Shown: piece after piece, positions 21,486 through 35,620 of the stretch
Position numbering within the stretch: the stretch's first letter is position 1
Layout of the letters: the number at the start of each line of letters is the position of its first letter
Assembly (NCBI RefSeq): GCF_020991005.1
Contig: NZ_JAJLLW010000005.1
Location: 248,001 to 312,000, forward strand
Source of the DNA: Halomonas sp. CUBES01
GTDB lineage: Bacteria; Pseudomonadota; Gammaproteobacteria; Pseudomonadales; Halomonadaceae
Direction: 5' to 3'
Length of the DNA: 64,000 nucleotides
Notes under the pieces: model-generated
The model's input: only the letters and a program-made list of their open reading frames with translations
Database searches by the model: none
What the model was told of the DNA's origin: nothing
Program-made: the position numbers and the translations under genes

Positions 21486-22628
21486 CTACTGCCAAGTTGC
21501 CTGGTTGGCGCGGGTGGCTGCGAGGCGTGTTTCATCAAGTGTAATGCCGAGGCCAGGTTCGTCAGAGAGTGTCAGCCAGCCTTCGGCATCGGGCTTGATA
21601 GCGGTTGTCAGCGGAAAGTCGCGAACCTCGGGTGTCCATTCCGGTGGGTCGAAGGGATACTCCAGATAAGGGCAGCCCTCTGGACCAACTGCCCCGGCGG
21701 TGAGGTGCAGATTGGCGGCAAGGCCGATGCCGTTCCCCCACGTATGTGGTGTGAACCACTTGCCTGCCGTGGTGACCTCTTTCGCCAGTCTGGATAAGCC
21801 GAGAAGCCCGATTGAGCAGACGGCGTCCGGTTGGTAGACGTCAAGGCACTGCTGTCGCAGCATTTCGCGGAATTCGTAGGGTTCGCGGGTCATCTCGCCA
21901 CCGGCGATTTTAAGCCGCTCGCCGGTCAGGTCGTTGAGGGCGTGCATGCCGGGGTAGTCGCCGCGATAGAGCGGCTCCTCCATCCACAGCACATTATGGT
22001 GGATTAACTCCTCAGCAACCTCGCTTGCCTTGGCCAGGTCCCAGGGGGCTTGGGTATCCCAGGGCATCCGCCAACCCTGGTTGCAGTCGACCATCAGGTC
22101 CAGTTCTTTTCCCACGGCATTACGTACCGCCGCGAGCACCGCTAGATCATCGTCGAGCCGGTGACGGCCAAAGCGTAGTTTCATGGCGGGGATGCCCGCG
22201 TCGCGAATCTGCTCGGCGAGGGCAACGACCTGCTCCGTAGGGCGATGAGTACCGCTGGAGGCGTACGCCTTCAGGCGCGACGAGGTGCCGCCCAATAACT
22301 GCCATAACGGTTGTGCCTTGATCTTGCCGATCAAGTCCCATAAAGCGACTTCCAGTGGCCAGCAACGCCCGGCATGAAAGCCGATGTTGTCGATCACGGC
22401 ACTGTGGCGTTCGATGGCTAAGGGGTCTTGCCCAATGAATAGCGACCGGAAGTCGTCGAAGCCATACATGGCATCGCCCGATCCGATGCCTTCACGGCCT
22501 TCGCTGTCGATCACGCGAACGATGGCGGCCGGAAACTTTTGCCTGGGTTGGCTATCCCAGGCCGCCGGGAAGGGTGGGTCGAGCTCGCACTGGTGCTGAC
22601 TGATCTCGATACGCTCGATCACGTTCAT
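21486..22628 (-). CDS. Enolase-superfamily (mandelate racemase/muconate lactonizing) enzyme
   Basis: A 380-residue MR/MLE-family protein. Likely active-site residues are K150/R152 in PAMKLRFG, metal ligands D191 (VDCNQGW), E217 (WMEEPLY) and E245 (AGGEM), then D268 and H295 (HTWGNG). It probably abstracts the alpha proton of a carboxylate substrate for dehydration, racemisation or cycloisomerisation; the substrate is unknown. The start at 22628 overlaps the Fe-ADH stop by ATGA, so the longer frame from 22706 is rejected. It is the last gene of a leftward operon with ALDH and Fe-ADH. A 3'-end copy of this gene is found at 4247-4723. Confidence 0.87.
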
Positions 22629-23824
22629 GCGCTGATCTCCCGGTTCTGGGTGGCAAGCTCGGCAACACGGCGCTCGAACACAGATACAGTGGCGTCGGCG
22701 AGCCATTGCCAGTCCTCGCCAGTGGGACGGCGGGCCGCGTTGCGCGCCATGGGCGAGTTCTCGTCTTTTTGCATGGTCAAGGCTAGCGCCTCAGCGTCTA
22801 GTGTCAGCGTGGCGAAGGGGGCAAGGGCTTGGTTGAAGCGGGTCTGATCAGCAAGCTCGCGGAATAGCCTGGGCAAGTCTTGCGCTTTGCACCCGGTTTT
22901 CAGGGCATGGGCCGCTGGCGCGAAACACGCCTCATTGTCTGCCACCGACCACGCCAGTGACGCTTCCAGCGCCAGCGTTACGGCAACACCGTGGGGTAAA
23001 TGAAAACAGCTACCCAGGGCATGGCCGATGTTGTGGGCGATGCCGGTACCGCCATTGTCAATGGCCTGGCCCGCCAGGCAAGCGGCCTCCTGCATGCGTT
23101 GGCGGGCCTCTAAATTATGCGGGGTAGCCACAGCAATGGGCAGCGCCTCGCCTACCTGGCGGATGGCCTGCAGCGCTGGCGCTTCAATAAAAGTGTGTCG
23201 CCCTTGGCCGGTAGTGGCCTCCAGCGCATGGACGAAGGCATCCAGGCCGGTGGTGGCAGTGAGCGGGGCGGGCAAGCCACGGGTTAACGCCGGGTCGAGC
23301 AGGACCGCGTCGGGTAGCAGTTCGTCGCCCCAGGCCCAAAGCTTGCGTCCCTCAGCGTCGGTGAGGATCGATGTGCGTGTGACCTCGGAGCCGGTACCCG
23401 AGGTCGTTGGCACCATCACGGCGGGTACGCGCCCTGACCAGGGGGTCCTGGCCAACAGGTAATTTTCCATATCGCCCTGGCTTTCTGCCAGGGCTGCGAC
23501 CAGCTTGGCGATGTCTAACGCGGTGCCGCCGCCCAGCCCTATCACCATGGGGCGGCCGGGCAGGGCACGCACCGCGGCCGCGGCTGCATCGGCGGTAGCG
23601 ACGCTGGGTTCGCCCGGCGGTGCCAGGAAGGTATCTACCTCGGCATCAGCTGTCAGGTCGTCGACCAGTGCATCGACCAGGCCGGTCGCGGCAAGGCCCT
23701 GGTCACTGATGACCATATAACGGCTGGCCCCCAGGCGGCTGCGAAGCTCGGGTAGCTGCTCAAGACTGCCAGGTCCCGCGATGATCGGTGTCTGACGTCC
23801 GGTGTGAAAATGGTTCAGGGGCAT
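22625..23824 (-). CDS. Iron-containing alcohol dehydrogenase
   Basis: A 399-residue group III (Fe-type) alcohol dehydrogenase starting [19 protein letters not shown]. It has the NAD-binding glycine motif [12 protein letters not shown], then [12 protein letters not shown], and the metal-ligand region [11 protein letters not shown] ... [23 protein letters not shown] with the family histidines. The longer open frame (from 24076) runs over the ALDH gene and lacks family similarity; 23824 leaves a 4-base gap to the ALDH stop. It probably interconverts a hydroxy group and a carbonyl in the pathway of this operon. Confidence 0.88.
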
Positions 23825-23828
23825 GGGT

Positions 23829-25322
23829 TCAAATCTCGATCCAGGTGGTCTTGAGTTCTGTGTACTTATCAAAGGCATGGAGCGATTTGTCGCGGCCCTG
23901 GCCGGATTGCTTGTAGCCACCAAACGGCGCATTGATCGATGTGTGGTCGTAACAGTTGACCCAAACGGTGCCTGCTCGCAGGGCACGGGCGGCGCGGTGG
24001 CCGTCGCGTAGCCGGTCAGTCCAGATCGCCGCTCCGAGGCCGTAGTCGGTGTCATTGGCGATGGCCAATGCCTCATCCAGGTCGTCCACGGTAATCACCA
24101 CCAGGACAGGGCCGAATATCTCTTCGCGGGCCACCCGCATATCGTTGGTGACATCGTCGAGTACTGCCGGGGTCAGGTAGTGCCCGCCGCTCTCGCCGCG
24201 TACTTGCTCGCCGCCGAACAGCCGTTGCGCCCCTTCGCGCTGGCCCTGTTCGAGATACCCCTGCACCTTTTCCATATGCGCCTGCTCGATCATCGCCCCC
24301 ATCTGTACCGATGGGTCGAGCGGGTCACCGGGCTGTAGTGCTTCGGCCCAGCCGCGAAGTTTGGCAAGAAGGGTTTCCTTGACGGCTCGATCGACGATCA
24401 AGCGGGTACCCGCGTGGCAGGTCTCGCCCTGGTTGTACCAGACGCCATAGGCGACCGACATGGCGATGGTGTCCAGGTCTTCCACATCGCGCGTGACGAT
24501 GTGCGGGCTCTTGCCGCCGCACTCCAGGCCGATGCGCTTCATATTGGAGTGCGCGGAATACTCAAGAAAAGCCTTCCCGACCTCAGTGGAGCCGGTGAAA
24601 CCGACGGCATCGACGCCGTCATGCAGGCCCAATGCCTTGCCAGCGATGTGGCCCAGCCCGGTGACCACCTGGAAGGCGCCCGCGGGAATGCCAGCCCCTT
24701 GGGCGAGCTCGGCCACCTTGAGCGTTGCCAGGCTAGACTGCTCGGCGGGCTTGAGGATCACCGAGTTGCCAGCGCCCAGTGCCGGGCCGATCTTCCAGCT
24801 GGCGATAATCAAGGGGTAGTTCCATGGCACCACGGCGGCCACCACGCCCATTGGCTCACGGTCTATCAGGCAGACGCTCGTTGACCCGTTGGGTGCCGTT
24901 TCACCGTAAAGCTTGTCGAGTGACTCAGCATACCAGCGCAGCCCTCCGACCAGGCCGGGCACATCCACGGTGGTGGTCTGACCGATGGGCTTGCCGGTTT
25001 CCAGAGTCTCGAGCAACGCAATGTCGTCTAGCTGTGCCTCAATGGCATCCGCCCAGGCGAGCATGCGCGATTTGCGCTCGGTGGGCGGCAGGTCTCGCCA
25101 TTCACCACTCTCGAAACTGCGGCGAGCACTGGCGACGGCGAGGTCGACGTCAGGGTTGTCGCAAGCCGCCACTTCCGTGAGTACCTGGCCGGTGGCAGGA
25201 TTCTCTGCTGAAAAAGTGGCGCCGCTGAGCGCGTGGACGAATTGTCCGTCGATATAGGCCAATTGCGGAAGAGGGAGAGTGCTTGCGCGGTTCTGCCAGT
25301 CGGCGTGGGAGCGGTCTGTCAT
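23829..25322 (-). CDS. Aldehyde dehydrogenase (BetB/PuuC-like)
   Basis: A 497-residue NAD(P)-dependent aldehyde dehydrogenase. It shows the Rossmann region VPWNYPLIIASWKIGPALGAGNSV, KPAEQSS, GFTGSTEVGKAF, the general base in ECGGKSPH, the catalytic cysteine in NQGETCHAGTR and the C-terminal NAPFGGYKQSGQGRD. The closest groups act on betaine aldehyde, gamma-aminobutyraldehyde or similar aldehydes. It is first in a leftward operon with the Fe-ADH and enolase-family genes and is divergent from a LysR gene across 183 bases. The in vivo aldehyde is not known. Confidence 0.88.
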   Translation of the reverse strand: MTDRSHADWQNRASTLPLPQLAYIDGQFVHALSGATFSAENPATGQVLTEVAACDNPDVDLAVASARRSFESGEWRDLPPTERKSRMLAWADAIEAQLDDIALLETLETGKPIGQTTTVDVPGLVGGLRWYAESLDKLYGETAPNGSTSVCLIDREPMGVVAAVVPWNYPLIIASWKIGPALGAGNSVILKPAEQSSLATLKVAELAQGAGIPAGAFQVVTGLGHIAGKALGLHDGVDAVGFTGSTEVGKAFLEYSAHSNMKRIGLECGGKSPHIVTRDVEDLDTIAMSVAYGVWYNQGETCHAGTRLIVDRAVKETLLAKLRGWAEALQPGDPLDPSVQMGAMIEQAHMEKVQGYLEQGQREGAQRLFGGEQVRGESGGHYLTPAVLDDVTNDMRVAREEIFGPVLVVITVDDLDEALAIANDTDYGLGAAIWTDRLRDGHRAARALRAGTVWVNCYDHTSINAPFGGYKQSGQGRDKSLHAFDKYTELKTTWIEI

Positions 25323-25505
25323 CTAATAACCTCGGCGGTGAGTTGGCATGTCGGCGTGATACTAGGCGCTCAGCTGTGGCCCCACAAACGATGAAAGCGA
25401 ACCCTGGGTATTCCTATAACTCATGCAAAGCTGGTAATGGGCAGGTGTTTACTGACATTATTGGGTCAGTTGCTGCGAAAAAATCACCCAAAGAGGCTCC
25501 GGCGC

Positions 25506-26411
25506 ATGTCACGCACTTTACCCCCGCTCAATTCTCTCAAGGCCTTCGAGGCCGCCGCCGAGTGTGCGAGTTTTACACTAGCGGCACAGCGGCTCTGCGT
25601 GACTCAGAGTGCGGTCAGTCGTCAAGTCAAGTTGCTGGAGGAGCAGTTGGGAGTGTCGCTTTTCCAACGCGGTTCAGGTCACCTTCGACTGACCGATGCG
25701 GGGCGACGGTTACAACCTGTGCTGCGTCAGTCCTTTGATCGCATTGCCTGGACCGTAAGAGGCTTGCAAGAGCCAGATGCTGTTCCCCACCTGCGCCTGA
25801 ATGCGCCACCCACCTTTGCCAATCGATGGTTGATTCCGAGGCTGGGGCGCTTGAAATCATTGCACCCGGATCTGGAGCTGTCCCTGACAACGCGCGCTGA
25901 CGACGACCTTGTAGGCGACGAAAACCTGGATGCCGCGATTCGTTTTGGAACCGGTGAGTGGTCGGATGCCGAGATAGTTCACTTGATGCAGGAAAGTCAT
26001 ATCGCCGTCTGCGCACCCAAGCTCAGGGGATCCATGCGTCGTGATGCGCTCGACCTCAATCACCAGGTGCTGCTCCATGTCCTTTGGGGCGAGGATCGCT
26101 TTCATACCTGGGATCACTGGTTGTCAGCGGCCGGTATCGAAGGCGTGAAGACCAGCGGGGGTATCGCGTTCGATCTTCTGGAATTGGCGATTCATGCCGC
26201 CGTCAACGCCGTCGGGGTGACTATCGCTGATCGGCACATGGTTGCCCGTGAGCTGGATAGAGGGGAGCTCGTGCCGTGGCTTGATGTCGAGGTCACCGGG
26301 CATCGTTCCTACTGGTTGGCAACCCGGCCACACCAGGTGGAGTCGGCCAACCTCAAGCTTTTTCGCCAATGGCTGGCGCAGGAGATTGAAGATCCCCCCA
26401 CCGGTCTATAG
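25506..26411 (+). CDS. LysR-family regulator, GcvA-like
   Basis: A 301-residue LysR-type regulator of the GcvA/AmpR-like group, recognised by LPPLNSLKAFEAAAECASFT and LAAQRLCVTQSAVSRQVKLLEEQLGVSLFQR at about 7-60. The effector domain begins HLRLNAPPTFANRWLIPRL. The ATG at 25506 matches the typical family N-terminus and follows AGAGG; the frame upstream to 25437 is not family-like. It is divergent from the ALDH/Fe-ADH/enolase operon and so is its likely regulator. Confidence 0.87.
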   Translation: MSRTLPPLNSLKAFEAAAECASFTLAAQRLCVTQSAVSRQVKLLEEQLGVSLFQRGSGHLRLTDAGRRLQPVLRQSFDRIAWTVRGLQEPDAVPHLRLNAPPTFANRWLIPRLGRLKSLHPDLELSLTTRADDDLVGDENLDAAIRFGTGEWSDAEIVHLMQESHIAVCAPKLRGSMRRDALDLNHQVLLHVLWGEDRFHTWDHWLSAAGIEGVKTSGGIAFDLLELAIHAAVNAVGVTIADRHMVARELDRGELVPWLDVEVTGHRSYWLATRPHQVESANLKLFRQWLAQEIEDPPTGL

Positions 26412-26470: not shown

Positions 26471-27382
26471 CTAGGAGGCGTCGTGGAGGCTGTTATCGGA
26501 GAGAAGTTGTTCTCGCAGTAAGTCGATGAGCGTATCCCCCGCGGGGTGCTGGAAACTCGGCGATTGGCGAACCGTCAGTTCGGCAGGTGGCAGTGCCGGG
26601 AACCCGTCCGCTTCATCAAGGATGCGCCAGTTCTCTGGCATGGCGCGTCGATCAGTGACTGTGACGGCCTTGCCCTGGTTGACGGCAACGCGCAGCCCGG
26701 TGGGGCTTTGGGTGGTATATTCCAGCGACCATTGCCTGCCCATGCGAGCAAGGGCTTCCAGGGCGCGTTCTCGATAAGGGCAGTGGTCGGGGAAGAGCGC
26801 CAGCGCGAGCGGCGCATTGGGGTCGACACAATAATCTCGATGCGCTGCCCAAACCACTTCCTCGTGGCCCATTGATACCCCATGCCGTTGGCTCTTGTGT
26901 TGAATGGTCAGTACGAGATCCAGTTCTCCCGCTTCCAATGACTCGATGAGTTCACTCGACATGCGGCAGTGAATATGCGGCCGAATGCGCGGATGGCGTT
27001 CGGCAAAGCGGCCCAATAGTGCCGGTAGCCAGGCTTCGGCATAATTTTCCGGTAGGCCGAAACGAATCACTCCGTCGTGGTCTCCGTGACCAAGCACGCT
27101 CAACGCCTCGCGTTGCAATTGCAACAGGCGACGGGCGTAGACCAGAAACGTTTCACCATCTTGAGTGAGTGTCAGTTGACGACTCGTGCGCTGCAATAAA
27201 CGCGTGCCGAGACGCTCTTCCAGGGTGCGTATGCGCAGACTAATGGTCGACTGCGTCTTATGCAGCTGGTTGGCGGCAGCAGTAAACCCATTGTTGTCCA
27301 CCACGGCAACGAAAGCACTCAGCAGCTCATTGTCGAGTGACGGGGTGCGGGACGAGCTATCGGTAAAGTCGATGGAATCCAT
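26471..27382 (-). CDS. LysR-family regulator
   Basis: A 303-residue LysR-type regulator. The DNA-binding domain contains LDNELLSAFVAVVDNNGFTAAANQLHKTQSTISLRIRTLEERLG, followed by the effector domain from about residue 95. It is divergent from the oxygenase gene at 27484 with only 101 bases between starts, so it probably controls the oxygenase/M24/binding-protein cluster. A GTG one codon upstream (27385) is an alternative start with a slightly better spaced GAGGAA. It is convergent with the GcvA-like gene. Confidence 0.86.
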   Translation of the reverse strand: MDSIDFTDSSSRTPSLDNELLSAFVAVVDNNGFTAAANQLHKTQSTISLRIRTLEERLGTRLLQRTSRQLTLTQDGETFLVYARRLLQLQREALSVLGHGDHDGVIRFGLPENYAEAWLPALLGRFAERHPRIRPHIHCRMSSELIESLEAGELDLVLTIQHKSQRHGVSMGHEEVVWAAHRDYCVDPNAPLALALFPDHCPYRERALEALARMGRQWSLEYTTQSPTGLRVAVNQGKAVTVTDRRAMPENWRILDEADGFPALPPAELTVRQSPSFQHPAGDTLIDLLREQLLSDNSLHDAS

Positions 27383-27483
27383 CACAAGGAATTGTTTCCT
27401 CAATAGAGCGTGTTTATTCACTATGCCTCCAGATAAGCCCGGGTGCCAACCCGGTTCCTGTTTTACTGCTGGAGGATAATGCA

Positions 27484-28374
27484 ATGCTGAACGCTGACCA
27501 GTTGGCGGATGCGGAGCGCCTGGATCTGTCTGCCTTCGTCAATACCGAACGCTATCCACTCGATGACCCCAATAGTCCGTCGCTGCTTGAGGTCATTGAG
27601 TCTGCCCGGCGTGATCTTGACCGTGAGGGCTGTGCGGTGCTTCGAGGCTTTCTGCACCCGAGTGTCCTTGAGCAAGCGCGGACAGAGAGTGCGCACATGG
27701 CCGAGAAAAGTTTCTTCAACACGCGTCAGGTCAATGCCTATTTTACGGCTGATGACCCCTCGCTGCCGGATGATGATCCCCGCCGGATATTCATGACGCG
27801 TACCAGCGGTTTCGTTACACGGGACATGATCACGGCGGATAGCCTGATTCATAGGCTCTACGTCTCCAGGGCAATGAAGTCGCTGGTGGCACGCTGTCTT
27901 GGCGAAGAGCAAATTTACGAGTATGCCGACCCCTTTGCTGGCCTCGTGCTCAATGTATTGCCCGATGGTACTCAGCAACCGTGGCACTACGACACCAACG
28001 AATTCATCGTCACCATGATGACGCAGCAGCCCGAGGCGGGCGGCGTTTTCGAGTATTGCCCGGGTATTCGTACACCGCAGGACGAAAACTATTCCGGTGT
28101 CAGGGCGGTGATTCGTGAGGATGACTCAACACCTGTAAAGCGTTTGGATCTGCGTCCGGGGGATCTACAGCTTTTCAAAGGGCGCTTCAGTCTGCACCGC
28201 GTCTCAGAGGTGCAAGGTGATACGCCAAGACTGACGGCCATTTTCGCCTATTCGCAGCAGCCCGGCGTGGTCGGCAAGCTGGAACGCACACGCCAACTGT
28301 ACGGGCGTGTCGCTGAGCAGCATATCCAGGCAGAAGCCCGCTATGCCGAGCGTACTGACGGGCTGATCGACTAA
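27484..28374 (+). CDS. Non-haem Fe(II)/2-oxoglutarate-dependent oxygenase
   Basis: A 296-residue oxygenase. The iron-binding facial triad is visible as H168-Y-D170 in PWHYDTNEF and H238 in SLHRV, with R249 (TPRL) in the position that binds 2-oxoglutarate. The phrase TMMTQQPEAGGVFEYCPGIR followed by ENYSGVRAV resembles the carrier-free amino-acid hydroxylase/halogenase group around BesD. The aspartate at 170 (not glycine) predicts hydroxylation or oxidative cleavage, not halogenation. The substrate is unknown; neighbours suggest a small zwitterion. GGAGG is correctly placed before the ATG. It is 58 bases upstream of the M24 gene. Confidence 0.8.
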   Translation: MLNADQLADAERLDLSAFVNTERYPLDDPNSPSLLEVIESARRDLDREGCAVLRGFLHPSVLEQARTESAHMAEKSFFNTRQVNAYFTADDPSLPDDDPRRIFMTRTSGFVTRDMITADSLIHRLYVSRAMKSLVARCLGEEQIYEYADPFAGLVLNVLPDGTQQPWHYDTNEFIVTMMTQQPEAGGVFEYCPGIRTPQDENYSGVRAVIREDDSTPVKRLDLRPGDLQLFKGRFSLHRVSEVQGDTPRLTAIFAYSQQPGVVGKLERTRQLYGRVAEQHIQAEARYAERTDGLID

Positions 28375-28378
28375 GCAC

Positions 28379-28417
28379 GCCTCCCTATATTTCAAGAAAG
28401 CCTCCCTATATTTTCAA
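28379..28417. repeat. Tandem direct repeat before the M24 gene
   Basis: GCCTCCCTATATTTCAA (28379-28395) is repeated as GCCTCCCTATATTTTCAA (28400-28417), a 21-base period between the oxygenase stop and the M24 ribosome-binding site. It could be a tandem duplication or a regulator/mRNA element. Confidence 0.75.
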
Positions 28418-28432
28418 TAAAGAGGAGAGACC

Positions 28433-29686
28433 ATGAAGATGGATCTCGATACCCTCGGCATTCTTCCGCCGACCCACGAGCCCAGCGATTGCGAGCCGAC
28501 GCAAGCCGAGATTGAACAGGTATTACTTGACCGCCTTGGCCGGGTTCGACGTGAACTTGTCAAACGCGACATGACCGCGGTCGTGCTTTTTGATCCGGCA
28601 CACGTACGTTATGCGACAGGGTCGCGCAACATGCAGGTCTATAGTTCGCGCAACCCGGCACGCTATGCGTTCGTGCCCGCCGAAGGGCCTGTGGTGTTGT
28701 TTGAGTTTTCCGGCTGCGAGCACTTGGCCAGGCACCTGCCTACGGTGGATGAGATTCGCCCAGCGAAAGCGATTTCTTATTACTTCAATGAGAAAAATAC
28801 CGAGGCGGTGACCCGTGCCTGGGCGGACGAGATCATCGACCTCGTTCGGCAATGTGGGGGTGGTAAACGTATCGGCATCGAAAGCGCCACACCGGAAGCG
28901 GCCTTCATGCTGCAGAGGAGTGGCTTAGAGGTATTGGATGCACAGGCGCCACTGGAGTTGGCGCGTGCCATCAAGGTACCCAATGAGATCAAGATGGTGC
29001 GTTCGTCGCTTCGCGCGGTAGAAGATGGTGTTCGTCATCTTGAAAGGGCGATCAAGCCGGGAGTGAGTGAGAACGCTGTGTGGTCACGGTTGCACCAGCA
29101 CATCATCCAAACCGACGCTGATTTTGTCGAGACGCGACTGATGAACTCGGGACCGCGCACCAACCCATGGTTCCAGGAGTGTTCAGATCGCATCATCCAG
29201 GATGGCGAACTGGTGGCGCTGGATACCGACGTGGTTGGGCGCTACGGCTATTATGCCGACTTCTCTCGCACTTTCCTGTGTGGCGATGGCCAGGCAAGCC
29301 AGGCGCAGAAGGATCTCTACGCCATGGCATATGAACAGATACGTACCAATATGGAAAACATCCAGCCCGGCATCAGTTTCAAGGAATACGCCGAGCGTGC
29401 CTGGCGACTGCCAGAAGCCTACAAGGCGCGCCGTTACTTTGCCTTGGCGCATGGCGTTGGCATGAATGGCGAGTATCCCTACATCGTTCATCGTGAGGAT
29501 ATCGACGATAAGGGCTACGACGGCATTATAGAGCCGGGAATGACGCTTTGCGTGGAGAGTTTCATCGGCCACGAAGGGGGTGGAGAGGGCGTCAAGCTTG
29601 AAGAACAGCTCTACGTACGCGACGACGGAAAAGTGGAGCTACTGTCCGATTACCCCTTCGATTCCAGGTTGCTGGGATACACCTAG
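28433..29686 (+). CDS. M24-family metalloenzyme resembling DMSP lyase DddP
   Basis: A 417-residue pita-bread-fold (creatinase/Xaa-Pro peptidase) protein. Its C-terminal half follows DddP from roseobacters in unusual detail: ETRLMNSGPRTNPWFQEC, then ALDTDVVGRYGYYADFSRTF, AHGVGMNGEYP, LCVESFIG and VKLEEQ. Predicted metal ligands are D264, D266, D276, H340, E375 and E390, the DddP set. DddP cleaves dimethylsulfoniopropionate to DMS and acrylate, but relatives of this type may act on other osmolytes. A betaine-type binding protein follows. It could instead be a peptidase or amidohydrolase; DMSP activity is a hypothesis. Confidence 0.75.
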   Translation: MKMDLDTLGILPPTHEPSDCEPTQAEIEQVLLDRLGRVRRELVKRDMTAVVLFDPAHVRYATGSRNMQVYSSRNPARYAFVPAEGPVVLFEFSGCEHLARHLPTVDEIRPAKAISYYFNEKNTEAVTRAWADEIIDLVRQCGGGKRIGIESATPEAAFMLQRSGLEVLDAQAPLELARAIKVPNEIKMVRSSLRAVEDGVRHLERAIKPGVSENAVWSRLHQHIIQTDADFVETRLMNSGPRTNPWFQECSDRIIQDGELVALDTDVVGRYGYYADFSRTFLCGDGQASQAQKDLYAMAYEQIRTNMENIQPGISFKEYAERAWRLPEAYKARRYFALAHGVGMNGEYPYIVHREDIDDKGYDGIIEPGMTLCVESFIGHEGGGEGVKLEEQLYVRDDGKVELLSDYPFDSRLLGYT

Positions 29687-29722
29687 TGAAACGGCGCTGC
29701 ATTCTTTTTTCTCATGATAGCT

Positions 29723-29752
29723 ATTCGGTAATGTCGATCGTCATTCGGTAAT
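29723..29752. promoter_or_regulatory. Twin direct repeats upstream of the betaine-type binding protein
   Basis: ATTCGGTAAT occurs at 29723-29732 and again at 29743-29752, exactly 20 bases apart (about two helical turns). It lies 55-84 bases before the start codon. This looks like a regulator-binding array upstream of a separate promoter for the following gene. Confidence 0.55.
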
Positions 29753-29806
29753 AACCTGCTACGATTGACTTTTTAGAATGGCTAAAACAAAAGGAAGGAA
29801 CTTGGT

Positions 29807-30676
29807 ATGAATAAAATGTCATCATCGGTCTTGATGGTAGGGCTTTTGGCAGCGGCAACTAGCGTTCAGGCAGACGATCACAAGTCATTGGTGATCGGCA
29901 CCAACAACTGGGCCGAGAACATTGCCGTCGCCAACATGTGGAAGATCATTCTTGAAGAAGAGCATGGCTATGACATCGAACTCTCCGATGTCAGCAAGAG
30001 CGTGCTTTACAGTGGTCTGGCCAACGAAGATATCGATCTTTCCATGGAAATCTGGCTACCCACTACGGATGCTTCTTTCCTTGAGCCCCACAAGGATGAG
30101 ATCGACGTGCACGATGTCTGGTACGAAGGCACTGGGTTGGGCTTGGTGGTGCCGAGCTTCGTCGACATCAATACTATCCCCGAGCTTGGCGAAAACTCTG
30201 AGTCTTATGAGTACCAGGGTAGCCCGACGATTCTTGGTATTGACTCAGGTTCGGCGATTGCAGGCTCTACCGAGGAGGCAATAGAAGCTTATGCATTGCC
30301 GCTCAAGCAGATCAACAGCTCCGGGCCGGCGATGATGGCGGCGCTTGATGATGCTTACCAGCGCGAAGAGCCGATCGTCGTGACACTGTGGAGCCCGCAT
30401 TGGGCTTTTGCTGAGTACGACCTCAAATACCTGGAAGATCCTGAAGGCGTTTACGGCGAAAGTGATGATATTCATTGGATGTCGCGCAAAGATTTCGGAG
30501 ACGATGATCCCTGGCTAACGTCCGTACTCAATGACTGGCACATGGACGACGATACATTGGGTGGCTTGATGGCCGAAATCGAGCAAACCGGCGACCCGGT
30601 GGAAGGTGCCCAGACCTGGATCGATGAAAATCGTGACTTGATTGATGAATGGTTAGCTGCTGGCGATGGGGAATAG
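29807..30676 (+). CDS. Glycine-betaine/choline-type substrate-binding protein (OpuAC family)
   Basis: A 289-residue periplasmic binding protein with a signal peptide (MNKMSSSVLMVGLLAAATSVQA). OpuAC/ProX-type features are GTNNWAENIAVANMWK near 31-46, EIWLPT, VWYEGTGLGLVVP, GIDSGSAIAGSTEEAIEAY and TLWSPHWAFAEYDLKYL. Tryptophans W35, W83, W105, W195 and W199 could form the aromatic cage that holds trimethylammonium or dimethylsulfonium groups. No ABC permease or ATPase is adjacent, so it must borrow a transporter elsewhere. Context suggests it delivers the substrate of the M24 enzyme and oxygenase. Confidence 0.88.
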   Translation: MNKMSSSVLMVGLLAAATSVQADDHKSLVIGTNNWAENIAVANMWKIILEEEHGYDIELSDVSKSVLYSGLANEDIDLSMEIWLPTTDASFLEPHKDEIDVHDVWYEGTGLGLVVPSFVDINTIPELGENSESYEYQGSPTILGIDSGSAIAGSTEEAIEAYALPLKQINSSGPAMMAALDDAYQREEPIVVTLWSPHWAFAEYDLKYLEDPEGVYGESDDIHWMSRKDFGDDDPWLTSVLNDWHMDDDTLGGLMAEIEQTGDPVEGAQTWIDENRDLIDEWLAAGDGE

Positions 30677-30860: not shown

Positions 30861-32366
30861 CTAAGCATCTTGCGGCTTTTGGCGGTTCTCTCGTAAGTGG
30901 TAGCGAATGGCCAGCACGATAGAAATGACCGCGAGCCCGAGGAGCACCGCAGAGATCGGCCGTGTAAAGAACAGCGTCCAGTCTTCATTGGTCATCAACG
31001 CGCGGCGCAGGTTGGTCTCGGCGATGGGACCCAGAATTACCCCAAGCACCAATGGTGCCAGTGGATAGTCGAGCTTGGTCATGATGTAGCCGACCACGCC
31101 GATGCCCAGCAGCAGGTAGATGTCAGTGACGCGGTTATTCAGGGTAAAGGCACCCACCAGGCAGCAGGTCAGCACCACCGGGACGATGATTGATTTTGGA
31201 ATGCTGGTGACCTTGAGGAACAAACGCATGCTGCAAAGGCAGATGACCAGCATCATGGCACCGGCGACGAACATGGCCATGAACATGCCATAGACCGTAT
31301 CGGCGTGGTCCATGATAAGACGCGGACCGACCCCGATGCCGTGTACCATCAAGGCTGCCATCAGCACGGCATCCACGGCACTGCCGGGAATCCCCAGGGC
31401 GATCATGGGAATCAAGCCGCCACCGGAGGTGGCCGAGTTGCCGGACTCTGAGGCAATGACGCCTTCGCTGCTGCCCTTGCCGAAGTCTTCAGGACGACGG
31501 GAGCCTCGCTTGGCCTGGTCATAGGCGAGCAGGTTGGCGATGCTGCCCCCCGCCCCAGGTACGGCACCGATGAATACCCCGACCATGGACGAGCGTAGCA
31601 GGTTGATGGGGTTCATCAGAACTTCGCGCAGGGCCGCAAAGGGATGAAATTCGATCCGCCCGGTAATCAGTTGGCGCCCCTGTTGCACCTGGTCGGGGTT
31701 TTCCACTTCCTTCAGCAGTTGACTCACGGCATAGATGCCGATCAGCACGACCAGGAAGGGAATGCCTGCCGAGAGCACGCGCAGGTCAAAGGTAAACCGG
31801 GTAACGCCCATCAGCGGGTCTGCGCCGACGGTGGCAATCAGCAGGCCCAACAGACCGGCCAGCAGGCCCCGTATCATCGAGCGTCCGACCAGGCTCGCCA
31901 CGATGGTCAGGGCAAATATGACGAGTGAGAAGTACTCCCATGCGCCCAGCTTCACGGCAATGAGCGCCAACGGCGGTGCCGCGACAATGAGAACCAGGGT
32001 ACTGACCAGGGTACCGAAGAAGGAGGCCCAGATGCCCAGGGCCAAGGCTCGCCCTGGTTCACCGTTGCGTGACATGGGGTAGGCATCAAAGGTGGTGGCC
32101 ACCGCAGAGGGTGTGCCGGGGATGCCAAGCAATGCGGCACTGATCATACCGCCGGTGTAGCCGCCGATGTACACGGCCAGCATGGTCGCCACGCCTTGCA
32201 GCGGAGGCATGGTGAAGGTCAGCGGCAAGGTCAGGACAATCGCCATGGTGATGGTGAAGCCTGGAATGGCGGCGGCGATGACGCCCACCGTTACCCCCAC
32301 CAGCATGGTGAGCATGGTCGTGAAGGTAAAGAGCTGATCAGCCCCTAAAAAGATGGCTTCTAGCAT
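30861..32366 (-). CDS. tctA: Tripartite tricarboxylate transporter, large permease TctA
   Basis: A 501-residue polytopic membrane protein of the TctA family. Motifs include GVTVGVIAAAIPGFTITMAIVLTLPLTF near 23-50, GGYTGGMISAALLGIPGTPSAVATTFDAYPM, GVFIGAVPGAGGSIANLLAYDQAKR and SEGVIASESGNSATSGGGLIPMIALGIPGSA. It is the main translocation subunit of a secondary carboxylate importer. It lies last in the leftward order tctC-tctB-tctA, 39 bases after tctB. Confidence 0.93.
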   Translation of the reverse strand: MLEAIFLGADQLFTFTTMLTMLVGVTVGVIAAAIPGFTITMAIVLTLPLTFTMPPLQGVATMLAVYIGGYTGGMISAALLGIPGTPSAVATTFDAYPMSRNGEPGRALALGIWASFFGTLVSTLVLIVAAPPLALIAVKLGAWEYFSLVIFALTIVASLVGRSMIRGLLAGLLGLLIATVGADPLMGVTRFTFDLRVLSAGIPFLVVLIGIYAVSQLLKEVENPDQVQQGRQLITGRIEFHPFAALREVLMNPINLLRSSMVGVFIGAVPGAGGSIANLLAYDQAKRGSRRPEDFGKGSSEGVIASESGNSATSGGGLIPMIALGIPGSAVDAVLMAALMVHGIGVGPRLIMDHADTVYGMFMAMFVAGAMMLVICLCSMRLFLKVTSIPKSIIVPVVLTCCLVGAFTLNNRVTDIYLLLGIGVVGYIMTKLDYPLAPLVLGVILGPIAETNLRRALMTNEDWTLFFTRPISAVLLGLAVISIVLAIRYHLRENRQKPQDA

Positions 32367-32405
32367 GAGAGGTTCCTTGTAACGATGTACCGATAACGGT
32401 GCTCG

Positions 32406-32942
32406 TCACCACATGCCGCGCGGCAGCGAAATGGTGAAAACATGGCGGAACAGGCTGTCCAGGCCAAATGACAACGCCAGTGCAACCACCGTTGCGATGA
32501 CCAATGCCTTGGTGCTGCGTGCGCCCAGCAGATATTGGCAGCCGATCAGGAACGGAAGGCTGGCCCAGCGAAAGCCAATAACTGGAACGGCTGCGGTCAT
32601 AAGGGCGAACAGGATCAGTACCCCAAAGGCGAGCCGGTGCTCGATCAGCCAGGCGCGAACGGCCCCTTGGGAAAGTGCCGATGTCTGCCTGAGCTTGGGT
32701 AGTTCCTTGGCGATGATCATCACGTTAAAAGCGACCAGTAGGGCAAGCACAATCCTTGGGAAAGTCCCTGCCCCCAAGGGCTCCCACATCGAAGAGGGAA
32801 GCTCGCCTGCACGCATGAACATGAACGCGAATAGCAGGGCTAGGATGGCATTGAAAAGAATATGCCCCCATGCCTTGGCTCGTTTGGCGTCGGTAGGTGC
32901 CCGGTCATCCAATGACCGGGCGTTGCGATTGACATCACTCAT
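32406..32942 (-). CDS. tctB: Tripartite tricarboxylate transporter, small subunit TctB
   Basis: A 178-residue DUF1468-type membrane protein with four hydrophobic segments and the usual short charged N-terminus. A conserved MWEPLGAGTFPRIVLALLVAFNV stretch lies at about 52-74. It overlaps tctC by 4 bases. It is the accessory membrane subunit of the importer. Confidence 0.88.
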   Translation of the reverse strand: MSDVNRNARSLDDRAPTDAKRAKAWGHILFNAILALLFAFMFMRAGELPSSMWEPLGAGTFPRIVLALLVAFNVMIIAKELPKLRQTSALSQGAVRAWLIEHRLAFGVLILFALMTAAVPVIGFRWASLPFLIGCQYLLGARSTKALVIATVVALALSFGLDSLFRHVFTISLPRGMW

Positions 32943-33937
32943 TGCTGCAGCTGCCCTGCGAGGCGTTCAACCGTGGCATTGAGACGTTCCAGGTGGGCAC
33001 GGAACTCGTCAGGCCCCATGAACTGAACCTCAGCGCCCGAGTTGTTAACGGCGCGGACAAAATCCTCATCGTTAGAGGTGGCTTCCAGCGCTGCCGCCAG
33101 TACATCGATGCGATCTTCCGATGTACCCTTCGGTGCGATAAGCCCCCTGAGGATCGACAGCTGCAGGTCTTCGTAACCCAGTTCCATCATGGTCGGTACA
33201 TCGGGTGTCTGGGCCATGCGCTCGGTGTGGCCCACCGCCAGGAACGATAGATCACCGTTTTCGACAAACTGGTTACTGGAGGCGATATCACCCATGGCGG
33301 CATCAATATGCCCGCCTACCAGGGCGCGGATGCGCTCGCCGGTGCCTTCAAAACCGACGAAGCGGAAGTCCAGGTCCTCGGCCTCAGCGATCATCGCGGC
33401 ATGGAGGTGAGGAACACCGCCAAGGGTCACACCGAAACGAACCTCTCCGGGGTTCTCGCTGGCATAGTCGACGAAGTCTTGCATCGTCTCCCAGCCTTTG
33501 TCCGGGTTGACGGTGAGGTACTGTGGTGAGGCAGTGATCGAGCCGACGGGTTCGAAGTCGTCCCAGTTGAGTGGGGTCAGCCCGGTGTGGTGAGAGACAA
33601 GGAAACCATCATGGATCTGGCCGACCGTGTACCCATCGTTGGGACGTTCTGCCAGGTCAGCAAGGCCGACGGTACCACTGACGCCTGGCATGTTGATCAC
33701 CGGCAGTGGTTGGCCCAGGTGATCTTCAATGTGGTTGGATACCAGGCGCATCAGAATGTCGCTACCGCCACCCGGCCCCCAGGGCACGATGAACTCGACG
33801 GGGTCTTCAGGGTAGGTGGCTTCCTGTGCGCTCGCCGAGGCACAGCCAACGGCAAGGACGGAACCGGCCACGGCGGTGAGAACGTGGCGCGACCAGGGTG
33901 AGGCGGTGTCATTGGCATTAGAATGTCCAGCTTGCAT
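32939..33937 (-). CDS. tctC: Tripartite tricarboxylate transporter, binding protein TctC
   Basis: A 332-residue Bug/TctC-family periplasmic binding protein. A signal peptide ends in AVGCASASAQ near residue 38; the preceding AVGCA could even act as a lipobox. Family motifs are VEFIVPWGPGGGSDILMRLVS, MPGVSGTVGLADLAERPNDGYTVG and GGVPHLHAAMIAE. The ligand cannot be read from sequence; Bug proteins bind diverse carboxylates. AAGGAGA precedes the start. It is 72 bases downstream of the ggt-like gene, so the four genes may be one operon. Confidence 0.9.
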   Translation of the reverse strand: MQAGHSNANDTASPWSRHVLTAVAGSVLAVGCASASAQEATYPEDPVEFIVPWGPGGGSDILMRLVSNHIEDHLGQPLPVINMPGVSGTVGLADLAERPNDGYTVGQIHDGFLVSHHTGLTPLNWDDFEPVGSITASPQYLTVNPDKGWETMQDFVDYASENPGEVRFGVTLGGVPHLHAAMIAEAEDLDFRFVGFEGTGERIRALVGGHIDAAMGDIASSNQFVENGDLSFLAVGHTERMAQTPDVPTMMELGYEDLQLSILRGLIAPKGTSEDRIDVLAAALEATSNDEDFVRAVNNSGAEVQFMGPDEFRAHLERLNATVERLAGQLQQ

Positions 33938-34009
33938 GGTGCATCTCCTTGTCTTTTTGATTGCATTGCCGACCGCAACATCGTTCCGCTCGGCATCATG
34001 CCCGGGCTG

Positions 34010-35620
34010 TTACCAGGGCAGTACCGCGGCATCGGTGCGAGGCTCAGTGCCGCCGCAGAGCACCCCGGTTTCCGCGTCGCGCAGAATGATCTGTCCACGA
34101 CCGAAACTCACAGAATCTGCTTTCTTGACGATGTGATGGCCTCGACGCGCGAGAGCCTGCGCCAGGTGGTCGGGAAAATGGGGTTCGACTTCCACAGTCC
34201 GGCCTCCCGTCCACTGCCAGCGTGGTGTGTCCAGCGCCGCCTGAGGATTCAGGGCGTCATCCAGCATCCCCGTGATGACCTGGACATGGCCCTGGGGTTG
34301 CATGAAGCCTCCCATGACCCCGAACGGTCCCACTGCCTGGCCGTTGCGGGTGATAAACCCGGGAATGATGGTGTGGTAGGTGCGTTTGCCAGGCGCCAGG
34401 GCATTGGTGTGCCCCTCATCCAGCTTGAAGGACCAGCCGCGGTTTTGGAGGCTGATGCCCGTGCCCGGGACGACGATGCCTGAGCCGAAGCCTTTGAAGT
34501 TGCTCTGGATTAAGGAAACCATGTTGCCTTCGGCGTCCGCCGTGGCGAGATAGACCGTTCCTCCGGTGATGGGGTTGCCGTGCACCGGATCCATTGCTTT
34601 CTCACCGATGGTGGCAGCACGGCGCTTCAGGTAGCCAGTGTCCAGCATCTGAGCGACGCTCGGCTTCATTGCCTCGGGGTCCGTGATGTGATGCAGCCCG
34701 TCCACGTAGGCGAGCTTGGTGGCCTCGATGCGGCGATGCAGCGTCTCGACGGGGTCTCTTCCTTCTTCACCAAGGTGCTCGAGCATGCCGAGTGCCTGAA
34801 GCGCGATCATGCCGCAGCCGTTGGGCGGAATTTCCCATATCTCATGGTCGCGATAGCGCGTACTGATGGGAGTTACCCACTCCGGCGCAAAGGCCGCGAG
34901 GTCCTCTTTGCGCAGCAATCCCCCGTGTTCACGGAAGAAGGCGTCGATACGATCGGCCAGTTCGCCTTCATAGAAAGCCCGGGCGTGGGTGTCTGCGATC
35001 AAGCGCAGGCTTTGTGCATGATCAGGGGACGCCCACATCTCGCCTGGGCGAGGCGCATGCCCTTTGGGCGCGAAGGTTTCGAACCACGGCTTAAAGGCGG
35101 CTTCCTCGTAGCGGCTGAAGGCCTGATAACCGTCTTCCCATAGCTGGCTTACCAAGGGAGATACCGGGAAGCCTTCTTCGGCCAGGCTAATGGCTGGTGC
35201 CAGAAGATCTGCAAACGGCAGGCGGCCAAAACGTTCCGACAGCGTGGCCCAGGCAGCGGGAGCGCCGGGAACCGTTACGGGAATGAGGCCGTGCTCGGGC
35301 ATGGTGTCGTGATGACCCATTCCTTTGACGGCCTCGATCGTGGCCGACTGTGGCGCGGGGCCACTGGCATTCAGGCCGTGGAGCTCGCCATTCATCCATA
35401 CGATGGCGAAAGCGTCACTACCCAGGCCGTTGGACGTCGGCTCCACTACGGTGAGGGCGGCAGCGGTGGCGATCGCCGCATCAACGGCATTACCACCCTG
35501 ACGCAGGATCTGCATACCGGCTTCAGCACCGAGAGGCTGTGAGGTGGCGACCATGCCACGGCGGCCAAAGGTTGCCATACGGCGGGAGGGGCTTGGGTAA
35601 TAACGCGCATCGAATTGCAT
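34010..35620 (-). CDS. Gamma-glutamyltransferase family protein
   Basis: A 536-residue N-terminal-nucleophile hydrolase of the GGT family. Recognised by GMVATSQPLGAEAGMQILRQGGNAVDAAIATAAAL near 22-56 and PTSNGLGSDAFAIVW. The processing site and probable nucleophile T355 is in GNPITGGTVYLATADAEGNMVS, and PFGVMGGFMQPQGHVQV lies near the C-terminus. There is no signal peptide, unlike classical periplasmic GGT, so it is probably cytoplasmic and may act as an acylase or hydrolase on gamma-glutamyl or other amide conjugates. The tctCBA importer downstream and the divergent amino-acid ABC importer suggest uptake and hydrolysis of a conjugate. Confidence 0.88.
   Translation of the reverse strand: MQFDARYYPSPSRRMATFGRRGMVATSQPLGAEAGMQILRQGGNAVDAAIATAAALTVVEPTSNGLGSDAFAIVWMNGELHGLNASGPAPQSATIEAVKGMGHHDTMPEHGLIPVTVPGAPAAWATLSERFGRLPFADLLAPAISLAEEGFPVSPLVSQLWEDGYQAFSRYEEAAFKPWFETFAPKGHAPRPGEMWASPDHAQSLRLIADTHARAFYEGELADRIDAFFREHGGLLRKEDLAAFAPEWVTPISTRYRDHEIWEIPPNGCGMIALQALGMLEHLGEEGRDPVETLHRRIEATKLAYVDGLHHITDPEAMKPSVAQMLDTGYLKRRAATIGEKAMDPVHGNPITGGTVYLATADAEGNMVSLIQSNFKGFGSGIVVPGTGISLQNRGWSFKLDEGHTNALAPGKRTYHTIIPGFITRNGQAVGPFGVMGGFMQPQGHVQVITGMLDDALNPQAALDTPRWQWTGGRTVEVEPHFPDHLAQALARRGHHIVKKADSVSFGRGQIILRDAETGVLCGGTEPRTDAAVLPW

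Follow-up and report, generated by a model that had tools for sequence, protein, structure and literature searches.

An oxygenase and an M24 enzyme encoded side by side in Halomonas and other bacteria, with a suggested role in the catabolism of an N-methylated zwitterion

DddP is a lyase of dimethylsulfoniopropionate (DMSP) that belongs to the M24 family and makes dimethyl sulfide (DMS), a climate gas. Hydrolases, creatinase among them, belong to this family too; creatinase and the ectoine hydrolase DoeA act, like DddP, on small zwitterions. The characterised enzymes of the HalD/BesD family (PF23169), halogenases and hydroxylases using Fe(II) and 2-oxoglutarate (2OG), are biosynthetic. Here we describe a locus of the halophile Halomonas sp. 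CUBES01 in which relatives of both families are encoded next to each other. It lies in a stretch of 64,000 nucleotides (contig NZ_JAJLLW010000005.1, positions 248,001 to 312,000; hereafter the window) from a genome of 3.6 Mb, and comprises three adjacent rightward genes and a divergent regulator gene:

27484..28374, plus strand: HalD/BesD-family Fe(II)/2OG oxygenase with a hydroxylase-type HxD...H site (296 amino acids; H168, D170, H238, R249)
28433..29686, plus strand: M24 enzyme, related to DddP but outside DddP (417 amino acids; D264, D266, D276, H340, E375, E390; G346)
29807..30676, plus strand: OpuAC-type periplasmic binding protein (289 amino acids; Trp35/Trp83/Trp195 cage)
26471..27382, minus strand: divergent LysR regulator (ATG at 27382 preferred; reading frame open to 27484)

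We propose with modest confidence that this locus serves the catabolism of an N-methylated (betaine-type) zwitterion, proceeding through uptake, hydroxylation, cleavage by the M24 enzyme and oxidation of an aldehyde. The three genes are intact and separated by 58 bp (oxygenase to M24) and 120 bp (M24 to binding protein). Their products exhibit Pfam scores of 54.4 bits (HalD, PF23169), 108.7 bits (Peptidase_M24), 30.2 bits (Creatinase_N) and 210.9 bits (OpuAC, PF04069), and the LysR domain was also found in the minus-strand open reading frame (ORF). The gene G+C content (0.52-0.57) is close to that of the window (0.584). An earlier note on this DNA, made from the sequence alone, had described these four genes and the active-site residues of the two enzymes, and in this respect the ORF calls, Pfam matches and alignments agree with it.

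The neighbourhood search that the note had proposed shows the arrangement to be conserved. Genome contigs were scanned with the oxygenase alignment, and the best 80 of at least 570 confirmed relatives were kept; all counts out of 80 refer to these loci. The closest named ones are from Vreelandella and Halomonas (95-97% identity); H. elongata carries the oxygenase as well as the M24 enzyme. Since shadow ORFs at high GC blur ORF-based maps, the main neighbourhood counts were obtained with tblastn. An M24 gene directly follows the oxygenase on the same strand, at 0-242 bp by match ends, in 63 of the 80 loci; these are all the non-actinobacterial ones, and the 17 loci without it (L092-L108) are all actinobacterial. 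A divergent LysR homologue is present in 59/80 loci, every one of them M24-paired. A binding-protein homologue (>100 bits) occurs anywhere in the locus in 26/80. The note had treated the oxygenase, M24 and binding-protein genes as a unit. The cluster is conserved, but its constant core is narrower, namely divergent LysR, oxygenase and M24, the OpuAC-type gene being swapped elsewhere.

The adjacency of oxygenase and M24 genes exceeds chance. Both genes are patchily distributed in a set of 58 genomes, the oxygenase being found in 8 (E <= 1e-20) and the M24 gene in 10 (E <= 1e-60), own genome included; by coordinates, all 10 oxygenase places, own locus included, are at most 200 bp from an M24 place, and two genomes (G044, G046) have the M24 gene but lack the oxygenase. 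Across 398 genomes sampled phylum-wide, 23 have the oxygenase (E <= 1e-20) and 22 the M24 gene (E <= 1e-100); by coordinates, pairs account for 8 of the 25 oxygenase places and 8 of the 33 M24 places. Those eight oxygenases are within the nine best-scoring ones, so the pairing is a feature of the closer oxygenase subfamily. Oxygenase-M24 pairs of a second sub-lineage have M24 enzymes 44-48% identical to that of the window. Three loci (L085, L086, L091) combine a window-type oxygenase (53-61%) with an M24 enzyme of another subclade (46-48%), as expected if the oxygenase-M24 pairing matters. The oxygenase-linked label needs five changes on the M24 tree, which implies more than one origin or loss of the pairing, or an exchange of partners. 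Another oxygenase-metallohydrolase pairing is seen on Enterobacter and Pantoea plasmids (L123, L230), where distant oxygenases (about 35%) have as neighbours a regulator, of the LysR or another type, and a peptidase gene of the DUF2817/M14 type.

The oxygenase passes the PF23169 gathering score of 26 bits. Its H168, D170, H238 and R249 are invariant in 46/46 aligned oxygenases, with the Fe ligands and the 2OG arginine in register with those of HalD/BesD halogenases and hydroxylases; the spacing between H238 and R249 is the same as between BesD H207 and R218, the comparison positions for the Fe ligand and the 2OG arginine (PMC13244439). The mark of a halogenase, a non-binding residue replacing the Fe-binding aspartate, is absent from the same 46 sequences. 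Because Asp170 is kept, we regard the enzyme as hydroxylase-type and reject a halogenase, although several database names read "HalD/BesD family halogenase".

The residues with which BesD contacts lysine are replaced. These contacts are given as E123 and D143 for the amines and H137 for the carboxylate (PMC13244439), and they fall on window residues F151, T171 and Q165, respectively, in a mapping taken from an ungapped stretch of the HalB alignment (R77, D239 and W241 were left out). Among 67 window-type oxygenase rows, including some places fetched more than once, position 151 is Phe in 44 and Tyr in 23, T171 is present in 66 and Q165 in all 67. In the actinobacterial (17/17) and second sub-lineage (11/11) groups, position 151 is Leu and position 165 is His, the BesD histidine being kept there. 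The changed residues speak against lysine bound in the BesD fashion, and a BesD-style lysine hydroxylase is accordingly disfavoured. An aromatic residue at position 151 instead of glutamate would suit a methylated cation. On the Pseudomonas MPC6 plasmid, the pair has another, divergent oxygenase copy (40%) nearby (L121:9882-10640), and Trp occupies the 2OG-arginine column in two of the three aligned MPC6 oxygenase rows.

By the tests available, the M24 enzyme is not a DddP. It shares with DddP the wider clade, the ETRL...NPWFQEC region and the six metal ligands that the earlier note had pointed out, D264, D266, D276, H340, E375 and E390, which are identical throughout the window M24 group (63/63; sequences >600 bits) and in 11/11 DddPs. 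Its best solved relatives are the DddPs 4b28 (E-value = 2e-77) and 4rzy (about 1e-77), the next family being at 6e-15. Y335 is the kept equivalent of Tyr366, called invariant in DddPs (PMC4108388). However, the enzyme scores 326.1 bits with the DddP equivalog model of NCBIfam (NF043017), the cut-off of which is 600. The same model gave no match in 14 control genomes, and 12 places exceeded its cut-off (635-903 bits) in 11 of 20 chosen genomes. In a quick tree of 73 M24 rows, which has several long branches, eight DddP rows form one clade (support 100) excluding the window protein, with a ninth protein over the DddP cut-off (L134, the same place as L209) as its sister; the window protein falls within another clade of 22 oxygenase-linked rows (support 99).

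A further difference is found at the column of DddP Asp377, a residue favoured as the DddP base and called invariant in DddPs, its role being a proposal in the source (PMC4108388). The window enzyme exhibits Gly346 there, as do 63/63 sequences of the window group, 11/11 of the second sub-lineage and 9/9 of one rhizobial group, two rows of which (L196, L198) were seen beside an MttB gene. Asp is present in 11/11 DddPs, in 4/4 of a group with two Rieske-linked proteins and in 9/9 of another rhizobial group, and Asn in 3/3 of L085, L086 and L091; the group names are our own, gene context having been seen for some rows per group. Arg65 and Arg73, in place of DddP Thr and His, are found in all these Gly346 groups, though not exclusively: Arg65 is accompanied by Asp in the MPC6 protein, and one or both arginines also occur in some unplaced rows. 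Given the low model score, the separate clade and Gly346 for Asp377, we reject a DMSP lyase as the leading reading, and the "DddP-like lyase" of the earlier note does not hold in that sense.

Ectoine hydrolases and Xaa-Pro peptidases match poorly as well. Scores are below the cut-offs of both ectoine hydrolase DoeA models (NF038259, 42.6 against 575 bits; TIGR02993, 25.1 against 613) and of the Xaa-Pro peptidase equivalogs (PepQ, 49.1 against 630 bits; PRK09795, 65.9 against 393; PRK10879, 40.1 against 465). Because three outgroup rows do not fall on one side of a branch in the M24 tree, the exclusion from peptidases and ectoine hydrolases relies on these curated cut-offs; the tree, a placement in which the note had named as a possible refutation, does set the protein apart from DddPs. 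Creatinase is matched weakly (7yto, E-value = 6e-14) over residues 132-408 only, so that the N-domain arginines, which we take to be the carboxylate-binding pair of creatinase and a test feature, lie outside the alignment. In Halomonas sp. ML-15, a second M24 gene (54%) with its own binding-protein gene (67%) adjoins the module, no oxygenase being seen beside it (L037:13866-16000); it groups with M24 enzymes of two genomes from other families (L125, L126).

The third gene encodes a member of the same Pfam family as the glycine betaine-binding protein OpuAC. Its Trp35, Trp83 and Trp195 align with what we take to be the cage residues Trp178, Trp225 and Trp72 of Bacillus subtilis OpuAC, and this aromatic cage, which the note had mentioned, is kept in 30/30 matches above 100 bits, some places among them having been fetched twice. 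No permease or ATPase gene lies directly beside the gene in the window. The genome holds six OpuAC-domain proteins and five BCCT carriers, so the binding protein possibly shares a permease encoded elsewhere.

Across the loci, the OpuAC-type gene is one of several interchangeable transport genes, being replaced by a full Opu ATP-binding cassette (ABC) system, an SBP_bac_5 system or a LIV-type binding protein (L181), or joined by a BCCT carrier. For instance, a Paraburkholderia locus (L054) has OpuAC, permease and ATPase genes, and a Pseudomonas locus (L081) has genes for an aldehyde dehydrogenase (ALDH), a major facilitator superfamily transporter and an SBP_bac_5 dipeptide-type ABC system. A Chromohalobacter locus (L042) contains an OpuAC protein, a BCCT carrier and a second 2OG oxygenase (DIOX_N and 2OG-FeII_Oxy domains). 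The latter gene (L042:12217-13260) follows the module ahead of the binding protein, and an 89% identical gene occurs at L183:11308-12360.

More distant relatives bear on the substrate class. M24 relatives 41-46% identical to the window enzyme are found in or beside demethylation clusters of the glycine betaine monooxygenase (GbcAB) and MttB types, and belong to the same wider clade, although the attacking enzyme of our locus is a 2OG oxygenase, not a Rieske or corrinoid one. In two loci (L196, L198) they cluster with an MttB-family methyltransferase, an ABC system whose binding protein is of glycine betaine type, an MR/MLE (enolase superfamily) enzyme and Ldh-family genes; in two others (L197, L231) they directly follow a Rieske oxygenase and a presumed reductase. 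The Rieske protein of L197 is GbcA-like (412 bits, below the GbcA cut-off of 670), with a glycine betaine ABC system nearby; in L231, formaldehyde-detoxification genes adjoin on the opposite strand, and no betaine transporter lies within the stretch viewed. These MttB- or Rieske-linked clusters mostly include betaine-type transporters. The partners of the M24 enzyme of L195 (43%) are a ferredoxin and a desaturase-like protein. One distant oxygenase (34%) has no M24 beside it; its neighbours are an MttB-family gene (295 bits against a cut-off of 525), a flavin adenine dinucleotide (FAD) oxidoreductase and an SBP_bac_5-like ABC system. We considered proline or hydroxyproline betaine on account of the 4-hydroxyproline epimerase in L197 and the MR/MLE genes in L196, L198 and L121. 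As none of those genes is constant in the window group, this substrate was not adopted.

In Halomonas the module is flanked upstream by four genes:

25437..26411, plus strand: second LysR, GcvA-like (269 of 288 bits, below the cut-off; a homologue lies near the module in Pseudomonas loci)
23829..25322, minus strand: ALDH, PuuC/BADH-like, below both cut-offs (about 3.6 kb upstream of the module)
22625..24076, minus strand: iron-containing alcohol dehydrogenase (Fe-ADH; ORF start uncertain, overlapping the ALDH ORF; kept in several Halomonas loci)
21486..22706, minus strand: MR/MLE enzyme (kept in several Halomonas loci)

In 12/80 loci, all of the Halomonas group (L029-L039 and L059), an ALDH match above 200 bits lies on the opposite strand some 3.6 kb upstream. 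An ALDH cluster also occurs in 10 Pseudomonas loci, one of which was scanned. Beside a pair of the second sub-lineage (L113), a methylmalonate-semialdehyde dehydrogenase-type enzyme (TIGR01722, 649 bits against a cut-off of 448) would fit a malonate or methylmalonate semialdehyde intermediate there. The ORF of the divergent LysR (26471-27484, minus strand) has a listed TTG start that overlaps the beginning of the oxygenase gene; in our judgement, translation more likely starts at the internal ATG at 27382 (303 amino acids). A GGAA...TTCC inverted element near this start, in the LysR-oxygenase intergenic region (window 27382-27484), recurs in 8 of 12 Halomonas-group loci inspected by eye and is possibly a regulator site. 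Downstream, minus-strand genes for a TctABC-type transporter (30861-33937) and a gamma-glutamyltransferase (34010-35620) adjoin the module (window 30861-35620); we reject them as module parts because, among the loci mapped, they follow the module in L029 only.

Taken together, the betaine-type reading would run as follows. The OpuAC-type protein would capture the substrate, a quaternary ammonium compound, and probably hand it over to a permease whose gene lies elsewhere. The Fe(II)/2OG oxygenase, as its active-site residues suggest, would hydroxylate it, and the bimetallic M24 enzyme might then cleave the hydroxylated product into a methylated amine (or a shortened betaine) and an aldehyde; the chemistry, order and products of these steps are our proposal. 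The neighbouring ALDH would oxidise the aldehyde, the Fe-ADH and MR/MLE enzymes may act further along, and the divergent LysR may sense the substrate or a product. The capture and breakdown of a small zwitterion, as advanced in the earlier note, is thus supported by context, its DddP/DMSP part excepted.

The actinobacterial relatives, whose oxygenases belong to the same subfamily, exhibit another gene row. In 17/17 loci (L092-L108; Nocardia, Frankia, Amycolatopsis and others), the oxygenase gene is followed by a methyltransferase-like and a carnitine-acyltransferase-family gene (for instance L092:9836-13495). In the oxygenase tree, a quick one with several long branches and drawn from the midpoint, one branch (support 97) sets off 58 rows that include the actinobacterial and the M24-linked oxygenases, the actinobacterial ones lying between the two main M24-linked groups (supports 84-89). 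The methyltransferase-like protein of L097 gives 23 Pfam bits, under the cut-off of 27, and no PDB match at 0.1. The choline/carnitine acyltransferase of L092 scores 537 bits, and its best PDB matches are carnitine O-acetyltransferase (CrAT; E-value = 2e-69) and choline acetyltransferase (4e-59). Its presumed catalytic histidine and the residues aligned with what we take to be CrAT Tyr452 and Thr465 are kept in all 17. This row recalls carnitine biosynthesis and acylation (TMLH/BBOX, carnitine acyltransferase), but the oxygenase is of another family than TMLH and BBOX, and the actinobacterial operon is absent from the window. We tentatively raise the possibility that the window-type oxygenases form a clade of bacterial enzymes that hydroxylate betaines at carbon and feed into two pathways. 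Those of Proteobacteria would prime a methylated zwitterion for new M24 "onium" lyases or hydrolases (DddP relatives marked by Gly346, Arg65 and Arg73), and those of Actinobacteria, together with the methyltransferase and the carnitine-type acyltransferase, would lead to carnitine-like hydroxybetaine esters.

The closest competitor of the betaine-type module, though an unlikely one in our view, is an N-demethylation route in which the oxygenase would hydroxylate a betaine N-methyl group, as GbcAB does on glycine betaine, formaldehyde would leave and the M24 enzyme would hydrolyse another part of the molecule before or after. Such a route would fit the M24 relatives that lie by MttB-family genes or directly follow a Rieske oxygenase, the latter being GbcA-like in L197 and having formaldehyde-detoxification genes nearby in L231, as well as the presence of creatinase in the M24 family; yet a Pfam scan of 19 window ORFs revealed no recognisable formaldehyde gene, the HalD/BesD relatives of known function oxidise side-chain carbons, and the actinobacterial acyltransferase partner suggests a stable hydroxyl product. 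We give little credence to a peptide-type catabolism, with the M24 enzyme as a dipeptidase or amidohydrolase on a hydroxylated dipeptide or N-acyl amino acid. Databases do name the M24 relatives Xaa-Pro peptidases, the Pseudomonas locus L081 has its dipeptide-type ABC system, and distant oxygenases on Pantoea, Klebsiella and Enterobacter plasmids lie by DUF2817/M14-type peptidase genes, but the peptidase equivalogs are far under their cut-offs (PepQ, PRK09795), and the loci of Halomonas, Chromohalobacter and the Burkholderia group have betaine-type transport genes.

A biosynthetic tailoring role, the oxygenase yielding a hydroxylated amino acid or betaine and the M24 enzyme finishing a natural product or osmolyte, appears improbable: the binding proteins, ALDHs and divergent LysR of the proteobacterial loci are the usual make-up of a catabolic operon, and the window ORFs scanned include no recognisable biosynthetic gene, even though the actinobacterial gene row and the biosynthetic nature of the characterised HalD/BesD enzymes would agree with it. 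A DMSP (or dimethylsulfoxonium propionate, DMSOP) lyase cluster, in which the M24 enzyme would be a divergent DddP releasing DMS and the oxygenase would act on a related sulfonium compound, is the least credible and in our view very improbable. DddPs as the closest solved structures, the kept metal ligands and Y335, and the OpuAC-type uptake speak for it; the model score, in a test that 12 places in 11 other genomes pass, the separate DddP clade and the Asp377 column, the role of that residue being itself a proposal in the source cited above (PMC4108388), speak against it.

Several observations weigh against the betaine-type module that we prefer. The BesD-to-window residue mapping relies on sequence with a fixed offset. 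The position of OpuAC His230, presumably its carboxylate-binding residue, is Asp88 in the window protein and in 30/30 matches. Binding proteins differ in family between loci, with SBP_bac_5 in Pseudomonas and a LIV-type protein in L181, and some of the homologues may therefore have different substrates. In the 398-genome sample, 25 of 33 M24 places have no adjacent oxygenase, and most M24 relatives there have other neighbours. Four oxygenases of family-f73 genomes (40-44%) are without M24, one of them (L187) having SBP_bac_5-type genes downstream. In the actinobacterial acyltransferase, the columns of what we take to be CrAT Thr467 and Arg518 hold Ala and Gln, the latter in 17/17, so the acyl acceptor is carnitine-like at most. 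The substrate class is drawn from neighbours, some of which belong to relatives 34-46% identical, and no specific substrate emerged from the analysis.

A full-text literature search, judged by titles and abstract starts and with most subscription journals outside it, gave no recognised description of the oxygenase-M24 pair or of the actinobacterial gene row, in line with the statement of the note that it knew of no described system with this set. In saline and plant-associated habitats, methylated osmolytes are carriers of nitrogen, sulfur and carbon. If the proposed function is true, the module would be an uncharacterised and widely shared route for their breakdown, and the analysis also points to the actinobacterial oxygenase-methyltransferase-carnitine-acyltransferase row. 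DddP would then belong to a larger set of M24 enzymes partnering betaine-attacking enzymes, which would call for caution against counting every DddP-like match as a source of DMS.

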